Part shown: piece after piece, positions 15,276 to 30,349 of the stretch
Layout of the letters: every line of letters begins with the position of its first letter
How positions within the stretch are numbered: position 1 is the first letter of the stretch
Source: Mya arenaria
Lineage: Eukaryota > Mollusca > Bivalvia > Myida > Myidae
Reading direction: 5' to 3'
Length of the DNA stretch: 64,000 nt
NCBI RefSeq assembly: GCF_026914265.1
Contig: NC_069130.1
Span: 15,216,366-15,280,365 of the forward strand
The notes under the pieces: generated by a model
The model's input: the letters and a program-made list of their open reading frames with translations, nothing else
Databases searched by the model: none
Told to the model about the DNA's origin: nothing
Program-made: the position numbers and the translations under genes

Positions 15276-16295
15276 ATACTTTAATTGTATTGTGTCACCA
15301 ATTTCAGTATGAAAGAGTTATCTTTTTATAATATAAGTGTTTTCAGATGCCTTTTCTTGAAAATTAATTCTTGGTCCAAAACACGAGCGAGTCCCTTGAC
15401 ACATTCAACAGGTAATTGCAAGACTATTTATTAATTGGTCCATGTCGGTTGAATTGTTTGCATACGCAAATAACAGAATTGTTTATTTTAAAATTGTTAC
15501 AGCAAGGTAAATTATTAATTTTAAATGTCAAAAATTGCATTTTTATTGTTCAAGTAGAATTTGAGTTACCTAGGAATACATAATTCATGTTATATTCATT
15601 TCGTTGTCCTGAAAATGGTTAACGATTTTCACTATGTCATAACATTGAAGATTTAAATTTATATCATGATATGTGCTAAACTGTTCAACTAGGCAAAGTA
15701 TGTGCATATTTGTGTACTGATAGAGATCGTTTTGTTTTATGAAATAGTGTAAAACATGTTAATAAAGTATTGTTATCACGAACAAAGCGGTTTTACATAA
15801 TATATTTAACGTACTGAAATGCATATGTTGTCAAAAAGAAAATATATAGAATAAATCTATAACATAGTTCATTTTTTTTGTTTCTTTTACATTCAAAGGT
15901 CGTTGTATTGTTCTATGCTATTTTCATATTCACATCAAAAAACGAAATAACAGATTAAAGTTTTCTTTTCGGAAGTTACTTTAAACCTTATTACTTGTTA
16001 TTAAGAATTAAAAAAACACACTTTCAATTGGTTTTGAGTGTTTACATTGAAAGCTGTTTGAATAAAATTGCATTTTTATGGCAACCACCATAAAGAGGCA
16101 ATGTATGCGAATGGTCAAAAAGAATTAAGGTAATAATAATTTAAATCAGACTCTTCTAAAGGCAGAATTATCCATGCTGGCCAAAATACTTTGTTTACAA
16201 ACGAAAATACCATGTAATGTACAGGAATGGCTATGAAGCAGAATCTACGCTATGTTTATTACCAGGACACGCCATATACCTGCATTTATACATGC
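15276..16295. other. Intergenic, nothing recognised
   Basis: AT-rich sequence with no supported exon, RNA or repeat before the 33-bp satellite begins. Confidence 0.5.
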
Positions 16296-19200
16296 AGCCA
16301 TACACTGTGTACGTGAAATTGTACCTGTATCTACACGACGTGTACGTGAAATTGTACCTGTAGCTACAGGCGTTGACGTGAACTTGTACCTGTTGCTACA
16401 CGGCGTGAACGTAAAATTGTACCTGTATGTACACGGCGTGTACGTAAAATTGCACCTGTATCTACACGCCGTGAACGTAAAATTGCACCTGTATCTACAC
16501 GCCGTGTACGTAAAATTGTACCTGTATCTACACGCCGTGTACGTAAAATTGCACCTGTATCTATACGGCGTGTACGTAAAATTGCACCTGTATCTACACG
16601 GCGTGTACGTAAAATTGCACCTGTAGCTACACGACGTGTACCTGAAATTGTACCTGTAGCTACAGGCGTTGACGTGAACTTGTACCTGTTGCTACACGGC
16701 GTGTACGTAAAATTGTACCTGTATGTACACGGCGTGTACGTAAAATTGCACCTGTATCTACACGCCGTGTACGTAAAATTGCACCTGTATCTACACGGCG
16801 TGTACGTAAAATTGCACCTGTATCTACACGGCGTGTACGTAAAATTGCACCTGTATCTACACGCCGTGTACGTAAAATTGCACCTGTATCTACACGGCGT
16901 GTACGTAAAATTGTACCTGTAGCTACACGCCGTGTACGTAAAATTGTACCTGTAGCTACAGGCGTTGACGTGAACTTGCACCTGTAGCTGCATGCCGTGT
17001 ACGTAAATTTTGTACCTGTAGCTACACGCTGTGTACGCGAAATTGTACCTGTAGCTGCATGCCGTGTACGTAAATTTTGTACCTGTAGCTACACGCTGTG
17101 TACGTGAAATTGCACCTGTAGCTACACGGCGTGAACGTGAAAATGTAATTGTAGCTACACGCCGTGAACGTGAAATTGTACCTGTAGCTACATGGCGTGA
17201 ACGTGAAATTGCACCTGTAGCTACACGGCGTGAACGTGAAAATGTAATTGTAGCTACACGCCGTGAACGTGAAATTGCACCTGTAGCTACACGGCGTGAA
17301 CGTGAAAATGTAATTGTAGCTACACGCCGTGAACGTGAAATTGTACCTGTAGCTACATGGCGTGAACGTGAAATTGTACTTGTAGCTACACGGCGTGTAC
17401 GTGAACTGATACCTGTAGCTACACGCCGTGTACGTGAACTTATACCTGTAGCTACACGCCGTGTACGTGAAATTGCACCTGTAGTTACACGGCGTGAACG
17501 TGAAATTGTACTTGTAGCTACACGCCGTGAACGTGAAATTGCACCTGTAGCTACACGGCATGAACGTGAAATTGTACCTGTAGTTACACGGCGTGAACGT
17601 GAAATTGTACTTGTAGCTACACGGCGTGAACGTAAAATTGCACCTGTAGCTACACGCCGTGTACGTGAAATTGTACCTGTAGTTACACGGCGTGAACGTG
17701 AAATTGCACCTGAAGCTACACGGCGTGAACGTGAAAATGTAATTGTAGCTACACGCCGTGAACGTGAAATTGTACCTGTAGCTACATGGCGTGAACTTGA
17801 AATTGTACTTGTAGCTACACGCCGTGTACGTGAAATTGTACCTGTAGTTACACGGCGTGAACGTGAAATTGCACCTGAAGCTACACGGCGTGAACGTGAA
17901 AATGTAATTGTAGCTACACGCCGTGAACGTGAAATTGTACCTGTAGCTACACGGCGTGAACGTGAAATTGTACTTGTAGCTACACGCCGTGTACGTGAAA
18001 AAGTACCTGTAGCTACATGGCGTGAACGTGAAATTGTACTTGTAGCTACACGCCGTGAACGTGAAAATGTAATTGTAGCTACACGCCGTGTACGTGAAAT
18101 TGTACCTGTAGTTACATGGCGTGAACGTGAAATTGTACTTGTAGCTACACGCCGTGAACGTGAAATTGTATCTGTAGCTACATGGAGTGAACGTGAAATT
18201 GTATTTGTAGCTACACGCCGTGTACGTGAAATTGTACCTGTAGTTTCACGGCGTGAACGTGAAATTGTACTTGTAGCTACACGCCGTGAACGTGAAATTG
18301 TACCTGTAGTTACACGGCGTGAACGTGAAATGGCACCTGTAGCTACACGGCGTGAACGTGAAATTGTACTTGTAGCTACACGCCGTGAACATGAAATTGT
18401 ACCTGTAGCTACACGCCGCGTACGTGAAAAAGTACCTGTAGCTATACGCCGTGTACGTGAAATTGTACCTGTAGCTTCACGCCGTGTACGTGAAATGGTA
18501 CATGTAGCTACACGGCGTTGACGTGAAATTGTACCTGTAGCTGCATGCCGTGTACGTGAACTTATGCCTGTAGCTACACGCTTGTACGTGAACTAATACC
18601 TGTAGTCACACGCCGTGTACGTGAACTTATACCTGTATCTACACGCCATGTACGTGAACATTAACCTGTAGCTATACGACGTGTCCGTGACCTTATACCT
18701 GTAGCTACACGACGTGTACGTGAACATATACATGTAGCTATACGCCGTGTACGTGAAATTGTACCTGTAGCTTCACGCCGTGTACGTGAAATGGTACATG
18801 TAGCTACACGGCGTTGACGTGAAATTGTACCTGTAGCTGCATGCCGTGTACGTGAACTTATGCCTGTAGCTACACGCTTGTACGTGAACTAATACCTGTA
18901 GTCACACGCCGTGTACGTGAACTTATACCTGTATCTACACGACGTGTACGTGAACAATAACCTGTAGCTATACGACGTGTCCGTGACCTTATACCTGTAG
19001 CTACACGACGTGTACGTGAACATATACATGTAGCTACACGCCGTGTACGTGAACCTATACCTGTAGCTACACGCCGTGTACGTGAACTTATACCTGTAGC
19101 TACACGCTTGTACGTGAAGATATACCTGTAGCTACATGCCGTGTACGTGAACTTATACCTGTAGCTACACGCCATGTACTTGAACTTATAGCTGTATCTA

Positions 19201-21584
19201 CACGCCGTGTACGTGAACATATACATGTATCTACACGCCGTATGCGTGAACTTATACCAGTAGCTACACGCCGCGTACGTGAACTTATACTTGTATCTAC
19301 ACGCCGTATGCGTGAACTTATACCTGTATCTACACGCCGTATGCGTGAACTTATACTTGTATCTACACGCCGTGTACGTGAACTTATACTTGTAGCTACA
19401 CGCCGTGTACGTGAACTAATAACAGTAGCTCCACGCCGTGAACGTGAACTAATAACAGTAGCTCCACGTCGTGTACGTGAACTAATACCTGTAGCTTCAC
19501 GCCGTGTACGTGAACTTATTTGTACCTGTAGCTACACGCCATGTACGAGAACTCTAAACCTGTAGCAATACGCCGCGTACGTGAACTTATACCTGTATCT
19601 ACACGCCTTATGCGTGAACTTATACCTGTAGCTACACGCCGTGTACGTAAACTTATACCTGTAGCTACACGCCGTGTACGTGAACTTATACCTGTAGCTA
19701 CACGCCGTGTACGTGTATTTATACCTTTAGCTACACGCCGTGTACGCGTACTTATACCTGTAGCTACACGACGTGTACGTGAACTTATACCTGTAGCTAC
19801 ACGCCGTGTACGTAAACTTATACCTGTAGCTACATCCCTTGTACGTTAACTAATTCCTATAGCTACACGACGTGTACGTTAACTTATACCTGTAGCTACA
19901 CACCGTGTACGTGAACTTATACCTGTAACTACACGCCGTGTACGTGAACTAATACCTATAGCTACACGACGTGTACGTTAACTTATACTTGTAGCTACAC
20001 GCCGTGTACTTGAACTAATACCTATAGCTACACGACGTGTACGTGAACATATACCTGTAGCTACACGCCGTGTACGTGAACTAATACCTATAGCTACACG
20101 ACGTGTACGTTAACTTATACTTGTAGCTACACGCCGTGTACGTGAACTAATACCTATACCTACACGACGTGTACGTTAACTTATACCTGTAGTCACACGC
20201 CGTGTAGGTGAACTCATACCTGTAGCTACACACCGTGTACCTGAACTTATACCGTTAGTCACCGGCCGTGTACATGAACTTATACCGGTAGTCACCGGCC
20301 GTGTACGTGAACTTATTCCTGTATCTACACGCCAAGTACGTGAACTTATACCTGTATCTACACGCCAAGTACGTGAACTTATACCTGTAGCTACACGCCG
20401 TGTACGTGAACTTATACCGGTAATCACCGGCCGTGTACGTGAACCTTTACCTGTAGCTACACGCCATGTACATGAAATTGTATATGTAGCTACACGGCGT
20501 GTACGTGAAATTGTACATGTAGCTACACGGCGTTGACGTGAAATTGTACCTGTAACTGCATGCCGTGGACGTGAACTTATTCCTGTAACTACATGCCGTT
20601 GACTTGAAATTGTACCTGTAGCCGCATGCCGTGGACGTGAACTTATTCCTGTAGCTACATGCCGTGTACGTGAACTTATACCTGTAGCTACACGCCGTGT
20701 ACGTGAACTTATACCTGTAGCTACACACCGTGTACGTAAACTTATACCTGTAGCTACACGCCTTGTACGTGAACATATACCTGTAGCAACACGCCTCGTA
20801 CGTGAATTTATACCGGTAGTCACACGCCGTGTACGTGAACATATACCTTTAGCTACACGCCGTGTACGTGAACTTATACCTGTAGCTACACGACGTGTTT
20901 ATGAACATATACCTGTAGCTTCACGCCGTATACGTGAACTTATTTATACCTGTAGCTACACGCCATGTACGAGAACTCTAAACCTGTAGCAACACGCCGC
21001 GTACGTGAACTTATACATGTAGCTACACACCGTGTACGTGAACTTATACCTGTAGCTACACGCCATGTACGTGAACTTATACCTGAAGCTACACGCCGTG
21101 TACGTGAACGTATACCTGTAGCTACACGCCGTGTACGTGAACTTATATCTGTAGCTACACGGCGTATACTTAACTTATACCTGTAGTTTCACGCCGTGTA
21201 CGTGAACTTATACCTGTAGCTACACGCCGTGTACGTGAACTAATACCTGAAGTCACACGCCGTGTATGTGAACATATACCTGTAGCTACATGCCGTGTAC
21301 GTGAACATGTACCTGTAGCTACGCGCCGTGTACGTGAACTTATACCTGTAGCTACACGACGGTGTACGTGAACTTATACCTGAAGCTGCACGCTGTGAAC
21401 GTGAACTTATACCTGTAGCTACACGACGTGTACGTGAACTTATACCTGAAGCTACACGCTGTGAACGTGAACTTATACCTGTAGCTACACGACGTGTACG
21501 TGAACTTATACCTGTAGCTACACGCTGTGAACGTGAACTTATACCTGTAGCTACACGCTGTGAACGTATAGGTGTAGCTATACA
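16296..21584. repeat. 33-bp satellite array, about 160 units (5.3 kb)
   Basis: Unit of the form TGTAGCTACACGCCGTGTAC then GTGAACTTATACC. TGTAGCTACA is a perfect palindrome, and ACACG-C-CGTGT plus GTACACGGCGTGTAC in variants give further dyads. Each unit has about three CpG, against a CpG-poor background. Three zones differ: 16.3-17.0 kb (AAATTGCACCTGTATC), 17.1-18.5 kb (GAACGTGAAATTGTAC, alternating unit types) and 18.5-21.6 kb (GAACTTATACCTGTAGC). Because 33 is a multiple of 3 and several frames lack stops, long 11-residue-repeat open frames appear on both strands, for example 17064-18521 plus (485 codons; REREIVPVATR type). There is no evidence that they are genes. Confidence 0.97.
18441..19032. 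repeat. Higher-order duplication within the satellite (two copies of about 296 bp)
   Basis: 18441-18736 and 18737-19032 share the same order of variant units: 'agcttcacgccg', 'gaaatggtacatgtag', 'ggcgttgacgtg', 'agctgcatgccg', 'cttatgcctg', 'cacgcttgtacg', 'agtcacacgcc', 'gacgtgtccgtgacc'. They differ at only a few bases. The offset of 296 is one base short of nine units. Confidence 0.85.
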
Positions 21585-22571: not shown

Positions 22572-22704
22572 TTTTCTTGAATGAAAACGAAACAAAGAAG
22601 CGCTTCGTGTCTTAAAGGCATTTTTCATAAATACGCAATTTGACGCATTAGGTCAGCAAGACCATTTCTCATGTCTAAATTTAAAGCTATCTTGAAGCTT
22701 AACG

Positions 22705-24619
22705 ATGCAGTTTAGACGTCAGAATACCAGAATAAATGTTTACACTATAATGGAGGAAGAAAAACACGCAAAAGTTGTTCCGTCAATGGTACCAACGGTT
22801 GTGAGCGGATTATTTGACAATTCTGATGGATTTACTGATAATTCGGAGTCAGATGAAAACACTGACTATTCAACGTCAAATAATGTTGGACATTGCAGCA
22901 CAATAAACGCAAACGACATTAGATCTGATGCAAGTTCTGTGAAAAGTGTCGAGAAATACGCAATTGTGAATTCTAATGGTGCATGTGGATATACAAATAC
23001 ACGTTATAACTCTGACGTCATTGTGTCAGATTACGGCAATGATGACGTCGATGACGTCTCGCGACGCGAGCTTCTAGAAAACGGATTAATGCCGTTTATA
23101 AAAGAGGAACTGAAATATTCCATTCAGACGAAACGGTTGAAGGAGGGAAAGCAGGAATTGAAAGTGGAATTTAGCCCTCCCTCGGAAGATGTGGTATGTA
23201 TTTCAAATAATTTCCATATGTCAGTTGGAGCAAAATAACCACCACTGGTTCATACATTCATTATTTGGGATTCAATTATTGTACACAGTCTTAATAACCA
23301 GACGTTATTTTTGGAAATCTACTTTTCCCTGAGATTTTTGCCACATCAAAAATCATGAAACACACAACTAATCCCGTAGTACAAGTATTTGGACTTTGAT
23401 TGTATATTGTCATATATACATAATCATGACAAAAAAGTTCCACCCAATAAAAGAATGCCTTCTCTTTAACTCACCCGGATGTTGTTACAGCTTACACCGG
23501 AAGAGGAAGAGCGGGTGGTAAAACGGCGCGTGCAGAACAGAATGGCCGCGCGCCGCTTCCGGGACAAACAAAAAGACAGAGCCCACACTTTGCAAAAGGT
23601 AAATTTGAAAAACGATAAAATCATTATCTTTTTAGAATAAAAACATTAATATTTGGAATAACATACAATAAAACTTTGACTTATGAATGTTAATTTTATT
23701 TCGCATTACTTCTGTTTTGAATGTAGCGTCACTGACCCCGAGGTACTGCTTCTTAAACTTATGATCTAAACAACACAATAATTAAAGTAGCAACATAATT
23801 CAAACAGAAAAGTATCCTTACGTGACAAATATTCAGTTGTTGTTTTTTATTTGATTTTTTTTTCTGTATTATCGGAATGCTTGAAAGCTGTACTGTCACA
23901 GATTGACCGATTGGACAACTGGTTTTTGTCTTGGTGTTTTCGGCAGTTTTCCAAACAATTGAGATCTGTTCTGTTGTGAGTTATATAAGATGACTGATTT
24001 GAAGGCATTGATCCCAACATCAAAAAGAAAAGTAGAAACAGTCAATCTGTGAGAGTGCAGTCTTAAGAATAAAACCAAAGAAGCAGGAGTGGTGTATTTG
24101 TTAAAAATCATGTTAAAGTGATATGTTCACTGGAAAACCAAAACAATCCTTGATAGATAAATATCAAAATCAGAGGTGTGTCGAGTACATATAGTTTTCA
24201 TGCTTATCAGGATATGCGTGTTACTAAAAGTGACGTGCATGGTACTGAGTATAACTTTATAATATTGTATTCTGATTTTATCGATTGCTTTTTAATCATG
24301 TCCCAAGTTAGTTTTTAGTAAACCTCGTCGCGTCCGAAAAATGGACTGAAAAATATAACATTTGATTTGATCAAAATGTTCATGTAATTAAAACAATACA
24401 CATTCATATTATTAATCGATTTCCTTATATCTAAATATGCTCATTTCCCGATACCTTCAGGAGTGTCATCGACTAGAAAGCATTCAGACAGAGTTGAGGT
24501 ACGAACTGGCGCAGGTACGAAAGGAAAGGGACGAATACCGCCATGCGTTTGATCAACACAAGGCCGTCTGCCCGCTACAGTTTCCCGCGCTTTTCATCGC
24601 GTCAAATTCGAACTCTTGA
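22705..24619 (+). CDS. ATF3-like bZIP transcription factor, copy A (intact)
   Basis: Nuclear DNA-binding protein that would act as a dimer. Exons 22705-23193, 23491-23598 and 24461-24619 (GT-AG, phase 0 at both junctions) encode 251 residues ending TGA. Exon 1 encodes an acidic N-terminus and FIKEELKYSIQTKRLKEGK, which resembles the 'KEEL..AIQ.K.L' segment before the bZIP in ATF3. Exon 2 encodes the basic region with the bZIP N-x7-R signature (NRMAARRFR). Exon 3 carries the zipper, with Leu or hydrophobic residues every seven (L-L-L-V-Y), starting LESIQTELRYELAQVRKERD, then an H-x4-C motif as in Fos/ATF3 proteins. Phe replaces the usual Cys or Ser in NxxAAxx(C/S)R. The start could be ATG 22705 or the in-frame ATG at 22750 (better context, ataATGG). 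A polyadenylation signal follows at 24824. ATF3/JDP2/Fos family membership is firm; the exact ortholog is not. Confidence 0.88.
23881..24066. mobile_element. Short family-1 foldback MITE in intron 2 of bZIP copy A
   Basis: Starts TTGAAAGCTGTACTGTCACA and ends TGTGAGAGTGCAGTCTTAA, about 186 bp, sharing the terminal sequence of the 2085-2449 family but with a shorter interior. The same insertion is present in copies B and C, so it predates the gene duplications. Confidence 0.75.
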
Positions 24620-25314
24620 CAACATGTGAACACTGAAAACTATTTTTAGAAACAGACTGAACTATCGTGATGTCAACAATTTACCTCACGACAGCTGATA
24701 ACAGAAACACGTTTTCATGACTGTCCTTGAAATTGTATTAGGGCGTTACACAGCAAATTGTTTCCAGTGTTCCAACATATTGATGTAAACTCATGACACA
24801 ATCTATTTTCAGTAAAAGCACATAATAAATGACAAAAAAAACTGTGATATTGTATGCTTTAAAACAATTGACGTTGGATTTTTTGTTCGGTTCCATTTCT
24901 GGCTTGATTTAATTGTAACCTTTGCATATATAATTCAGTATGTGTAGTGTGCATATAAAATGGATGTAATTGTGCCTTTTTTTCTCACGGAACGCTCCGA
25001 AATTGCAACACTTTGCTTCTAATTTAGAAAGAAATCTTGTGTGTGTGTGTGTAGGGGGGATCTTATCCCAAAACTCACATAGAACCATCGGACCTACAAG
25101 TATTTTAGGACTAGCTACGCCACTGAACGAAGTAAATATAGAAAAAAGCGATAATTACTTTACTTGGGAACCTTTTACTAAGCCTGGATTATATGAATTG
25201 GGAACCCAGTATATCAGAACTATCGTATATAAAAGTATCGTATATAAAAGTATATAAGCGTCTCCACTTTTTCCAAAAATAAAGATGTTTAATTTTATCA
25301 TTATTGTCTTGTAT
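24620..25314. other. Intergenic spacer between bZIP copies A and B, with TATA-type motif
   Basis: Contains the 3' flank of copy A, a short GT repeat near 25040 and, at 25250-25257, AAAGTATATAAGCG, a good TATA-box candidate for copy B. The spacer is repeated almost unchanged at 27482-28174. An open frame of 95 codons (24970-25257) has no recognisable domain and exists only because of the duplication, so it is not called. Confidence 0.45.
24824..24829 (+). terminator. Polyadenylation signal AATAAA of bZIP copy A
   Basis: AATAAA about 205 bp after the copy A stop codon, in 'cataataaatgac'. The same sequence follows copy B near 27686. Confidence 0.45.
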
Positions 25315-25438
25315 ATACTACTACTGTTACTACTACTATTACTACTACTGCTACTGCTACTGCTAATGCTAATGCTACTGTTGTTACTGTTGCTGCTGCT
25401 ACTCATGATGATGATAATAATGATGATGATGATGGTGG

Positions 25439-25487
<49 letters not shown>
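25315..25487. repeat. Trinucleotide repeats (CTA/GTTACT and TGA) upstream of bZIP copy B
   Basis: Irregular CTA/CTG/TTA triplets then about 25 TGA triplets, ending about 105 bp before copy B exon 1. The corresponding array of copy C (28175-28341) is 6 bp shorter in the TGA block. Confidence 0.95.
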
Positions 25488-25593
25488 ACATTTTTCGTTT
25501 CTAAAAGCATATTTTCGAAAATACGCAATATGACGCATTAGGTCAGCAAGAACATTTCTCATGTCTAAATTTACAGCTATTTAAAGCTCAACG

Positions 25594-27481
25594 ATGCAGT
25601 ATAAACGTCAGAATTCCAGATTAAACATTGACATTACCATGGAGGAAGAAAAACACGCACAAGTTGATCCGTCAGTGGTACCAACCGTTGTTAGCTGCTT
25701 ATTTGGCAATTCTGATGGATTTACTGACTATTCAACGTCAGATAATGTTGGACATTGCAGCACAATAAACGCAAGTGACATTAGATCTGGTGCAAGTTCT
25801 GCCAAAAATGTCGGGAAATACGCAATTGTAAATTTTAAAGGTGCATATGGATATACAAATACAAGTTCTACCGCTGACATTATTGTGTCAGATTACGGAA
25901 GTGATGACGTTGATGACGTCATGCGACGCGAGCTTCTAGAAAACGGATTTACACCGTTTATAAAAGAGGAACTAAAATATTCCATTCAGACAAAACGGTT
26001 AAAAGAGGGAAAGCAGGAATTGAAAGTGGAATTTAGCCCCCCACCGGAAGATGTGGTATGTATTTCAACTAATTTCCGTATGTCAGTTGGAGCAAAATAA
26101 CCACCACTGGTTCATACATTCCTTATTGGCTATTCAATTAGTGTACATAGTCTTAATAATTAGACGTTAATTTTGGAAATCTCCTTTTCCCTGAGGTTTT
26201 TGCCATATCAAAAATCATAAAACACACAACTAATCCCGTAGTACAAGTATTTGGACTTTTATTATACATTGTCATATATAAATAATCATGACAAAAAAGT
26301 TCCACCCAATAAAAAAATGCCTTCTCTTTAACCCACCCGAATGTTGTTACAGCTTACACCGGAAGAGGCAGAGCGTGTGGTCAAACGGCGCGGCGCGTGC
26401 AGAACAGAATGGCCGCGTGTCGCTTCCGGGACAAACAAAAAGACCGAGCCCAAACTTTGCAGAAGGTAAATTTGAAAAACGAAAAATCCATTTTCTTTTT
26501 AGAATTTATAAATATTTGGAATAACTTACAATAAAACCTTGACTTATGAATGTTAATTTTGTTTCGCATTACTATTGCTTTGAATGTAGCGTCACAGACC
26601 TCAAGGTACTGCTTCTTAAACTTATGATCTAAACAACACAATATTTAAAGTAGCAACATAATTCAAACAGAAAAGTATCCTTACGTGACAAATATTCAGT
26701 TGTTGTTTTTTATTTGATTTTTTTCCTGTATTATCGGAATGCTTGAAAGCTGTACTGTCACAGATTGACCGATTGGACAACTGGTTTTTGTCTTGGTGTT
26801 TTCGGCAGTTTTCCAAACAATTGAGATCTGTTCTGTTGTGAGTTATATAAGATGACTGATTTGAAGGCATTGATCCCAACATCAAAAAGAAAAGTAGAAA
26901 CAGTCAATCTGTGAGAGTGCAGTCTTAAGAATAAAACCAAAGAAGCAGGAGTGGTGTATTTGTTAAAAATCATGTTAAAGTGATATGTTCACTGGAAAAC
27001 CAAAACAATCCTTGATAGATAAATATCAAAATCAGAGGTGTGTCGAGTACATATAGTTTTCATGCTTATCAGGATATGCGTGTTACTAAAAGTGACGTGC
27101 ATGGTACTGAGTATAACTTTATAATATTGTATTCTGATTTTATCGATTGCTTTTTAATCATGTCCCAAGTTAGTTTTTAGTAAACCTCGTCGCGTCCGAA
27201 AAATGGACTGAAAAATATAACATTTGATTTGATCAAAATGTTCATGTAATTAAAACAATACACATTCATATTATTAATCGATTTCCTTATATCTAAATAT
27301 GCTCATTTCCCGATACCTTCAGGAGTGTCATCGACTAGAAAGCATTCAGACAGAGTTGAGGTACGAACTGGCGCAGGTACGAAAGGAAAGGGACGAATAC
27401 CGCCATGCGTTTGATCAACACAAGGCCGTCTGCCCGCTACAGTTTCCCGCGCTTTTCATCGCGTCAAATTCGAACTCTTGA
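25594..27481 (+). pseudogene. ATF3-like bZIP copy B, C-type/A-type hybrid with frameshift
   Basis: Exons 25594-26055, 26353-26465 and 27323-27481 correspond to copy A exons. Exon 2 is 113 bp instead of 108 because GGCGC is tandemly duplicated at 26387-26396, just before the basic-region NRMAACRFR. The frame shifts, basic region and zipper are lost, and a TAG follows a few codons into exon 3. No alternative AG inside the exon restores the frame. Exons 1-2 and intron 2 up to about 26726 match copy C; from about 26850 onward, including exon 3, it matches copy A. It could still yield a truncated N-terminal protein of about 200 residues. Confidence 0.82.
26743..26928. mobile_element. Short family-1 foldback MITE in intron 2 of bZIP copy B
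   Basis: Counterpart of the 23881-24066 insertion. The switch from C-like to A-like sequence (26727-26849) falls in or next to its left half. Confidence 0.75.
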
Positions 27482-28174
27482 CAACATGTGAACACTGAAA
27501 ACTATTTTTAGAAACAGACTGAACTATCGTGATGTCAACAATTTACCTCACGACAGCTGATAACAGAAACACGTTTTCATGACTGTCTTTGAAATTGTAT
27601 TAGGGCGTTACACAGCAAATTGTTTCCAGTGTTCCAACATATTGATGTAAACTCATGACACAATCTATTTTCAGTAAAAGCACATAATAAATGACAAAAA
27701 ACTGTGATATTGTATGCTTTAAAACAATTGACGTTGGTTTTTTTGTTCGGTTCCATTTCTGGCTTGATTTAATTGTATCCTTTGCATATATAATTCAGTA
27801 TGTGTAGTGTGCATATAAAATGGATGTAATTGTGCCTTTTTTTCTCACGGAACGCTCCGAAATTGCAACACTTTGCTTCTAATTTAGAAAGAAATCTTGT
27901 GTGTGTGTGTGTAGGGGGGATCTTATCCCAAAACTCACATAGAACCATCGGACCTACAAGTATTTTAGGACTAGCTACGCCACTGAACGAAGTAAATATA
28001 GAAAAAAGCGATAATTACTTTACTTGGGAACCTTTTACTAAGCCTGGATTATATGAATTGGGAACCCAGTATATCAGAACTATCGTATATAAAAGTATCG
28101 TATATAAAAGTATATAAGCGTCTCCACTTTTTCCAAAAATAAAGATGTTTAATTTTATCATTATTGTCTTGTAT
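27482..28174. other. Intergenic spacer between bZIP copies B and C
   Basis: Near-identical to 24620-25314, with only a few substitutions and a shorter A-run. It includes the same TATA-type motif near 28110. Confidence 0.6.
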
Positions 28175-28298
28175 ATACTACTACTGTTACTACTACTATT
28201 ACTACTACTGCTACTGCTACTGCTAATGCTAATGCTACTGTTGTTACTGTTGCTGCTGCTACTCATGATGATGATAATAATGATGATGATGATGGTGG

Positions 28299-28341
<43 letters not shown>
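28175..28341. repeat. Trinucleotide repeats upstream of bZIP copy C
   Basis: Same CTA/CTG/TTA and TGA structure as at 25315-25487, two TGA units shorter. Confidence 0.95.
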
Positions 28342-28447
28342 ACATTTTTCGTTTCTAAAAGCATATTTTCGAAAATACGCAATATGACGCATTAGGTCAG
28401 CAAGAACATTTCTCATGTCTAAATTTACAGCTATTTAAAGCTCAACG

Positions 28448-30349
28448 ATGCAGTATAAACGTCAGAATTCCAGATTAAACATTGACATTACCATGGAGGA
28501 AGAAAAACACGCACAAGTTGATCCGTCAGTGGTACCAACCGTTGTTAGCTGCTTATTTGGCAATTCTGATGGATTTACTGACTATTCAACGTCAGATAAT
28601 GTTGGACATTGCAGCACAATAAACGCAAGTGACATTAGATCTGGTGCAAGTTCTGCCAAAAATGTCGGGAAATACGCAATTGTAAATTTTAAAGGTGCAT
28701 ATGGATATACAAATACAAGTTCTACCGCTGACATTATTGTGTCAGATTACGGAAGTGATGACGTTGATGACGTCATGCGACGCGAGCTTCTAGAAAACGG
28801 ATTTACACCGTTTATAAAAGAGGAACTAAAATATTCCATTCAGACAAAACGGTTAAAAGAGGGAAAGCAGGAATTGAAAGTGGAATTTAGCCCCCCACCG
28901 GAAGATGTGGTATGTATTTCAACTAATTTCCGTATGTCAGTTGGAGCAAAATAACCACCACTGGTTCATACATTCCTTATTGGCTATTCAATTAGTGTAC
29001 ATAGTCTTAATAATTAGACGTTAATTTTGGAAATCTCCTTTTCCCTGAGGTTTTTGCCATATCAAAAATCATAAAACACACAACTAATCCCGTAGTACAA
29101 GTATTTGGACTTTTATTATACATTGTCATATATAAATAATCATGACAAAAAAGTTCCACCCAATAAAAAAATGCCTTCTCTTTAACCCACCCGAATGTTG
29201 TTACAGCTTACACCGGAAGAGGCAGAGCGTGTGGTCAAACGGCGCGGCGCGTGCAGAACAGAATGGCCGCGTGTCGCTTCCGGGACAAACAAAAAGACCG
29301 AGCCCAAACTTTGCAGAAGGTAAATTTGAAAAACGAAAAATCCATTTTCTTTTTAGAATTTATAAATATTTGGAATAACTTACAATAAAACCTTGACTTA
29401 TGAATGTTAATTTTGTTTCGCATTACTATTGCTTTGAATGTAGCGTCACAGACCTCAAGGTACTGCTTCTTAAACTTATGACCTAAACAACACAATATTT
29501 AAAGTAGCAACATAATTCAAACAGAAAAGTATCCTTACGTGACAAACATTCAGTTGTTGTTTTTTATTTGATTTTTTTCCTGTATTATCGGAATGCTTGA
29601 AAGCTGTACTGTCACAGATTGACCGATTGGACAACTGGTTTTTGTCTTGGTGTTTTCGGCAGTTTTCCAAACAATTGAGATCTGTTCTGTTGTGAGTTAT
29701 ATGATATTATTGATTTGAAGGCGTTGAACCTAAAAACAAAAAGAAAAGTAGAAACGGTCAGTCTGTGAGAGTGCAGTCTTAAGAATAAAACCCTATAAGC
29801 AGGAGTGGTTTTTGTATTTGTTGAAAATCACCTTAAGGTGATATGTTCACGCATGGAAAACCAAAACAATCCTTGATATATATTAATCAAAATTAGAGGT
29901 GTGTCGAGTCGATTTAGTTTTCATTGTCTGCTTATCAGGACACGCGTGTTACTAAGATTGACGTGCATGGTACTGAGTGTAACTTTATAATTATTTTGCA
30001 TTCTGTTTTTATCGATTGCTTGCTAATTGTGAACAAAGTCAATTTTTAGTAAACATCGTCGCGTCCGAAAAATGGACCGAAACATATAACATTTAATTTT
30101 ATCAAAATGTTCATGTAATTAAAACAAAACATACTAGTAATTGAATTGATTTCCTTATACCTAAATATATTCCTTTCCCGATGCCTTCAGGAGTGTCATC
30201 GACTAGAAAGCATTCAGACGGAGTTAAAGTACGAACTGGCGCAGGTACGAAAGGAAAGGGACGAATTCCGCCAGGCGTTTCAACAACACATGGCCGTCTG
30301 CCCACTACAGTTTCCCGCGCATATCCATGCGTCAACTTCGAACTCTTGA
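28448..30349 (+). pseudogene. ATF3-like bZIP copy C with the shared 5-bp frameshift
   Basis: Exons 28448-28909 (identical in protein to copy B exon 1), 29207-29319 (113 bp, GGCGC duplication at 29241-29250) and 30191-30349. The frameshift is the same as in copy B and disrupts the basic region. Beyond the shift the codons for NRMAACRFRDKQKDRAQTLQ are conserved in another frame. Exon 3 is intact and diverged from A (LESIQTELKYELAQVRKERD; EFRQAFQQHMAVC), with mostly conservative changes, so loss of function looks recent. It may produce only a truncated, non-DNA-binding protein. Confidence 0.8.
29597..29782. mobile_element. Short family-1 foldback MITE in intron 2 of bZIP copy C
   Basis: Orthologous to the insertions in copies A and B. 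Its right half is diverged (atgatattattg; gaacctaaaaac) from those two copies. Confidence 0.7.

Follow-up and report, generated by a model that had tools for sequence, protein, structure and literature searches.

A tandem bZIP gene copy in the clam Mya arenaria is a front/back mosaic of its two neighbours

Hybrid genes of the Anti-Lepore type are products of unequal crossover. Hybrids of the CYP11B1/CYP11B2 type are ascribed to the same event in the accessible portion of PMC8750845. As in these systems, the course proposed here is one in which tandem relatives misalign and a crossover within the gene yields a front/back hybrid. The process is well known, and the clam array is a clean example of it; we found no description of this array in the open-access literature. 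Within the 64,000-nucleotide stretch of Mya arenaria DNA that was analysed (the window), three neighbouring bZIP gene copies lie in the order A - B - C over a total span of about 8 kb.

Mosaic structure of copy B

All three copies are read on the forward strand, and the stop in exon 3 was read directly in each. Copy A has a 444-bp exon 1 with an open frame (22750..23193), an exon 2 with an intact bZIP basic region (23491..23598) and an exon 3 encoding the leucine zipper (24461..24619). The exons of copy C lie at 28493..28909, 29207..29319 and 30191..30349. In copy B, exon 1 (25639..26055) and exon 2 (26353..26465) are C-type, while exon 3 (27323..27481) and, by alignment, the downstream part and spacer (27482..28174) are A-type.

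An earlier note on this DNA had proposed that B is a C/A mosaic, and the diagnostic sites bear this out. In a three-way alignment covering B 25494-27761, with gap-free sites counted and indel columns excluded, B carries the C state at 112 of the 114 informative sites up to 26725 and the A state at two (26628 and 26693); no informative site falls in 26726-26848; and from 26849 to 27761 B matches A at 111 of 113 sites, is private at the other 2 and matches C at none. Along B, the A- and C-specific sites show a single switch between parental types, and the indels agree. Upstream of the switch every A-C indel has the C state in B, for example the 27 bp missing from exon 1, the 5 bp added to exon 2 and the 4 bp missing from intron 2; downstream the A state holds throughout, the one exception being a 2-bp difference within the poly-A tract at 27695. 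Copy B is the front of C joined to the back of A.

Trees of the wider family, computed without support values from 28 copies for exon 1 and 27 for exon 3 (one copy without exon 3 was dropped), place B with C and with C', a paralogue described below, in the first and with A in the second; among the family copies B is the clear hybrid case in this comparison. Two further copies, the pair located at 12.440 and 13.038 Mb, likewise switch neighbours between the two trees. In the short exon-3 alignment C' is closer than C to A and B, and the downstream part of C' is closer to C.

The hybrid sits between its two parents and takes its front from the one downstream (C) and its back from the one upstream (A); unequal crossing over is supported as the likely mechanism. 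The identical final sequence would result if a 2.86-kb A-C circle had been looped out and reinserted by homologous recombination, or from break-induced replication whose template switch used that same homology, so that the mosaic and the site counts fit such a route equally well; it would, however, take extra steps for which the sequence does not ask, and we regard it as very unlikely. B differs from C at 2 of 1211 gap-free sites upstream of the switch and from A by 3 SNVs in 1326 sites downstream, and this divergence of about 0.2% supports the earlier suggestion that the duplication is probably recent.

The switch interval and the foldback MITE

A one-breakpoint model has three equally good solutions, each with two contrary sites, in which the change directly follows 26603, 26644 or 26725. 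Strictly, the switch lies within 26604..26848 of B, a 245-bp patch of 98% A-C identity (4 differences), and most likely within 26726..26848, 123 bp over which A, B and C are identical. The breakpoint of 26727-26849 given in the earlier note thus holds if the contrary sites 26628 and 26693 are changes in C, and is too narrow on the strict reading. At 26693, C alone differs among the five copies (A, B, C, A' and C'); at 26628, C' shares the state of C, unlike B and A, so that B may have undergone a short conversion there. Also unfavourable to the simple reading, both B-C differences are confined to the 122 positions that immediately precede the switch, for which simple arithmetic gives a chance of about 1%.

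A dispersed foldback MITE spans 26750..26922 in intron 2 of B and has inverted ends (CTGYACTSTCACAGATTGAC); its left part makes up most of the switch interval. Matches to the end motif place the same element at 23888..24060 in A and 29604..29776 in C, at an identical position in all three genes, so that the switch does lie within or next to a MITE common to all copies, as had been proposed. The end motif has 10 matches in the window against 0.02 expected, 6 of them from A, B and C and 4 elsewhere. Of 3466 first-look candidates 40 were scored, and among the 42 matches listed, 37 are relatives outside the five local copies, spread over 12 contigs; the element has both the terminal inverted repeats and the many dispersed copies of a MITE.

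Parental identity is high where B switches, at 98% between A and C inside the patch versus about 88% on both sides of it. The 123-bp run of A-C identity is the longest in the three-way alignment, and when the differences were shuffled 5000 times, 2 of the trials reached this length; 26604-26848 is the least diverged 245-bp A-C window, with none of 2000 shuffles giving a window this low. An assembly graph loop would also switch at the longest shared run, and one A-C loop, perhaps from the other allele, might have been counted twice. The accessible portions of the sources describe the published assembly as that of a heterozygous clam sequenced with PacBio long reads, and false duplication as a known genome-assembly error. 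Nevertheless, the window is gap-free, every letter being A, C, G or T; typical PacBio reads, which in another project had an N50 of about 17 kb, are longer than the A-B-C array of about 8 kb; and three SNVs carried by B are absent from A, from A' and, as far as the alignment reaches, from C and C'. Moreover, the assembly was built with FALCON-Unzip, purge_haplotigs and linked-read polishing, and FALCON-Unzip produced few false duplications in one comparison, according to excerpts of the reports concerned. We consider such an error quite improbable.

The 123 bp of identity is below the 300-500 bp of homology estimated for human meiosis in the accessible part of PMC2583991, which counts against a crossover. 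The same part of that source states that short homology can suffice between close repeats, with alpha-globin exchanges involving <50 bp of matching sequence.

A two-gene paralogue and the proposed order of events

An inverted paralogue of the array, about 330 kb away at C9:15571953-15576677 on the reverse strand, is a block of two genes, A' and C', and the 18 kb fetched there hold no third gene copy. This two-copy state matches the ancestral A-C array that the earlier note had postulated, in a paralogue rather than in an allele or a sister species. The same minisatellite lies beside both loci on the left, and the right flank of the A'-C' block is the most similar found to that of the A-B-C array. 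The 338 bases that follow C show 92% similarity to the C' flank, and 91% to a stray piece found at C9:12901049-12901373; the next 0.4 kb resembles the C' flank at 70% and two further sites on the chromosome at 71-73%. As proof of synteny the right flank is thus only partly usable, since similar pieces match elsewhere on the chromosome.

A' differs from A at 29 of 1009 sites, compared with 3 of 1326 between A and the back part of B, which identifies A rather than A' as the donor of the back of B. In their front halves A and A' are near-identical. With all SNVs counted, the best change point for the end of this A-A' tract is A 23966/23967 (23865-24415 within 2 log units); when the four SNVs at 23987-23994 are treated as one event, it moves to 24414/24415 (23959-24476), and 1 of 2000 shuffles was as extreme. 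We do not claim a sharp coincidence between the tract end and the switch in B.

Within the intron-2 patch C' is about 87% like A or C, and C and C' differ at 30 of 233 sites versus 4 of 245 for A and C. Because C' has diverged in this patch, in contrast to the 98% identity between A and C, the patch is likely an older A-C gene-conversion tract, and constraint was rejected as the main cause of the identity. A 35-48-bp piece at 26645-26692 does match seven distant family copies at 83-94%, while most family matches to the stretch before it are at 77-82%, and part of the A-C identity could therefore reflect a possible constraint on this piece.

The probable occurrence of conversion here, in the A-C intron patch and in the front-half near-identity of A and A', lends something to another origin, in which B is an older third copy whose front was overwritten from C and whose back and spacer were overwritten from A. 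Two long tracts would then have to meet within 245 bp and the entire spacer would have to be copied, and the paralogous block carries its two genes alone over the stretch fetched; we judge this origin most improbable.

We consider it quite probable that B arose by ordinary unequal crossover of an A-C array, with both patch and frameshift predating it. Starting from an ancestral two-gene tandem array in Mya arenaria, an earlier A-C conversion would probably have left the 98% identical patch in intron 2, and C would have gained a 5-bp frameshift in its basic region before the duplication. C on one chromatid would then have paired with A on another, and a crossover inside intron 2, in the pre-existing patch including the left part of the MITE, would have duplicated a 2.86-kb unit and given A - (C front / A back) - C, in which B inherited the frameshift with its C front. 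The array may serve as a clean worked example, taken from a bivalve, in which a tract left by conversion later provides the substrate of an unequal crossover, with an independent paralogue showing the prior state. A more general proposal, that exchanges in this gene family recur in intron 2 with its MITE, appears doubtful to us; if true, the same few hundred bases would have hosted the A-C patch, the B crossover and the right end of the A-A' tract across the 330-kb inverted pair.

Coding capacity and comparison with known systems

In A, A' and C' the basic-region exon has an open frame (in A' and C' by translation only), and basic region and leucine zipper lie in one open frame. The predicted A protein matches the Pfam families bZIP_1 and bZIP_2 (PF00170, 31 bits; PF07716, 30.3 bits), in both cases above the cut-off. 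Of the description 'ATF3-like bZIP', Pfam supports the bZIP part; the ATF3 name is not established, as c-Fos and FosB come closest in sequence among solved structures (E about 0.001), with no ATF3 chain among the 19 listed. In C, and hence in B, the frame of the basic-region exon is shifted by a 5-bp CGGCG insertion, a feature overlooked in the earlier note. It lies at 26386..26390 in B, whose exon 2 measures 113 bp versus 108 in A, and at 29240-29244 in C, and it is absent from the other 25 exon-2 copies found, including those of A, A' and C'. Neither B nor C has basic region and zipper in one open frame, and a Pfam search with the frameshifted product gave zero matches. With a frameshift inherited from an already frameshifted C, B probably makes no DNA-binding bZIP protein and is, judging from its sequence, probably a non-functional hybrid. 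For exon 1, simple counting gives dN/dS of 0.42 (A-C), 0.45 (A-C') and 0.68 (C-C'), a range that is not decisive on selection in the C lineage. The frameshifted hybrid illustrates that a gene count may include near-identical tandem copies that do not work. Should the duplication prove polymorphic, it would provide a small structural marker that is easy to genotype, in a clam that has drawn study for its transmissible cancer.

Unlike Anti-Lepore and CYP11B1/CYP11B2, the array has clam bZIP genes as partners and a frameshifted front parent, so that a new active factor is not expected from B. It resembles Sdic of Drosophila melanogaster, as described in the accessible part of PMC7475035, in being a young, highly similar tandem array prone to unequal crossing over; for Sdic, that part reports measured copy-number variation in populations and coding potential in 31 of 31 annotated copies, whereas the clam array is known from one assembly and two of its copies, B and C, are frameshifted. 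As in non-allelic homologous recombination (NAHR) at human low-copy repeats and alpha-globin, to the extent that these are covered in the available part of PMC2583991, the breakpoint falls in near-identity and close repeats need little homology; the clam array differs from these human cases in its 2.86-kb unit and in a substrate that is partly a MITE.

A mosaic middle copy with its switch at or beside a foldback element

The middle of the three tandem bZIP gene copies, which start at about 22.6 kb (A), 25.5 kb (B) and 28.35 kb (C), is C-type in front and A-type behind. In a three-way alignment counted at gap-free sites over B 25494-27761, informative sites number 114 as far as 26725, of which 112 put B with C, and 113 from 26849 onwards, of which 111 put B with A; the stretch between (26726-26848) has none. 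The remaining two sites in the back part are private to B, and a third private SNV lies outside the counted range, at 27778. Apart from 2 bp in a poly-A run, indels concur with this pattern on either side of the switch. Plotted along B, the diagnostic sites pass from C-type to A-type with only two contrary sites, 26628 and 26693, where B matches A. At 26693, C alone differs among the five local copies (A, B, C, and A' and C', the genes of an inverted paralogous block), and a substitution in C explains this site best. The other site, 26628, has the same state in C' as in C and may reflect a substitution in C that matches C' by chance, one in B, or conversion over a short patch. Because a single break fits B equally well at three positions, the strict switch interval is 26604-26848, in intron 2; the interval proposed in the earlier note, 26727-26849, corresponds to its right half.

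That note had also placed the switch within or next to a foldback MITE (~26750-26922 in intron 2 of B), and about 99 of the 123 bases of the identical run are indeed MITE sequence. Both ends of the element match one 20-base motif. With ≤3 mismatches allowed, the window holds 10 occurrences of this motif (0.02 expected by chance), six of them belonging to A, B and C. As DNA, the element has a somewhat better fold than shuffled sequence (z -2.6; 4/200 shuffles at least as good). We searched the genome (1,216,080,610 bases on 18 contigs; the soft-shell clam assembly is reported as 1.22 Gb and 17 chromosomes, PMC10663159) with 26600-26940 as query, and scored 40 of 3466 first-look candidates. Of the resulting 42 matches, 37 lie elsewhere than in the five local copies and are spread over 12 contigs: 33 start at 26794-26810, three extend back to 26746, and one comprises the right end only, such that no scored match outside the local copies covers sequence upstream of 26746.

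A two-gene paralogue and the probable crossover substrate

The paralogous block, on the minus strand some 330 kb from the array, has the minisatellite found at the array's left (~5.3 kb, window 16267-21583) followed by A' and C', with no third gene within the 18 kb examined. Across 150-column windows, identity is 93-100% for A' against A and 83-98% for C' against C. Identity to the 338 bases that follow C is 92% for the C' flank and 83-86% for those of A, B and A'; a piece at 12.901 Mb reaches 91%. With its two genes and like flanks, the block shows that an array of the type inferred earlier as the A-C ancestor exists independently.

Overall, A and C differ at 221/2245 gap-free sites, versus 4/245 in the patch containing the switch, flanked by segments of 11.8% and 12.2% divergence. 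None of 2000 shuffles gave a 245-base window as low, and a 123-base identical run was reached in 2/5000. General constraint does not account for this identity, since C' differs in the patch from both C (30/233 sites) and A (31/233); the simplest reading is that earlier A-C conversion left the patch. At 26849-26856, A' carries C states and B carries A states, possibly another sign of short exchanges in intron 2. A 35-48-bp piece of the intron, at 26645-26692, recurs at 83-94% identity in seven distant members of the family and is possibly a conserved element.

The front half of B differs from C at 2/1211 sites, and its back half from A by 3 SNVs in 1326; A and A' differ at 29/1009 sites over 23987-25000. 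On these counts the donor of the back half is A, not A'. Including a 6-bp repeat-length difference and the 2 bp in the poly-A run, B diverges from its parents by about 0.2%, a figure that linked-read polishing may have understated by evening near-identical copies. Compared with ~10% between A and C, the event is young, as previously suggested, in relative terms only. Individuals may plausibly differ in copy number, since widespread gene presence-absence variation is reported in another bivalve (PMC7653742).

Exon 1 of A and A' is identical (0 differences in 148 codons) and their front parts differ by 8 SNVs in 1381 sites (window 22603-23986 vs C9:15575351-15576814, minus strand), fewer than further on, while C and C' diverge by 7-16%, a pattern that points to conversion within the inverted A-A' pair.

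Coding capacity and the wider family

A encodes an open 236-aa product with Pfam bZIP_1 and bZIP_2 both above cut-offs, and the reading frames of A' and C' are likewise open. In B and C, exon 2 measures 113 rather than 108 bases: a CGGCG insertion common to both puts the basic region out of frame partway through and brings a stop soon after exon 3 begins, and Pfam finds no match in the resulting 181-aa product. Since only B and C carry the insertion among 27 exon-2 copies in the stretches examined, it arose in C before the crossover and was inherited by B. The frameshift thus probably leaves B non-functional as a bZIP factor, though exon skipping or internal starts could yield a partial protein.

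On C9, the chromosome that carries the window (15216366-15280365), the family numbers 28 exon-1 copies in the stretches examined. Some distant copies are broken too: exon 2 at C9:12910372-12910479, for instance, contains an in-frame stop, and the matches to exon 1 are split at 12424377, 12954428 and 12959814. Three tandem 35.4-kb units at C9:12929764-13035491, 99.6-99.8% identical, each hold four relatives; two weaker relatives on C10 (142775-142993 and 192770-192988; 40% and 37% identity) are possibly older members.

In conclusion, B is most probably an unequal-crossover hybrid formed at or beside the MITE, and in this main point the earlier note is supported. To that account we add an independent two-gene array, a corrected interval, a frameshift and, probably, an older conversion patch that served as substrate. 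B is a fresh instance of a well-known process.
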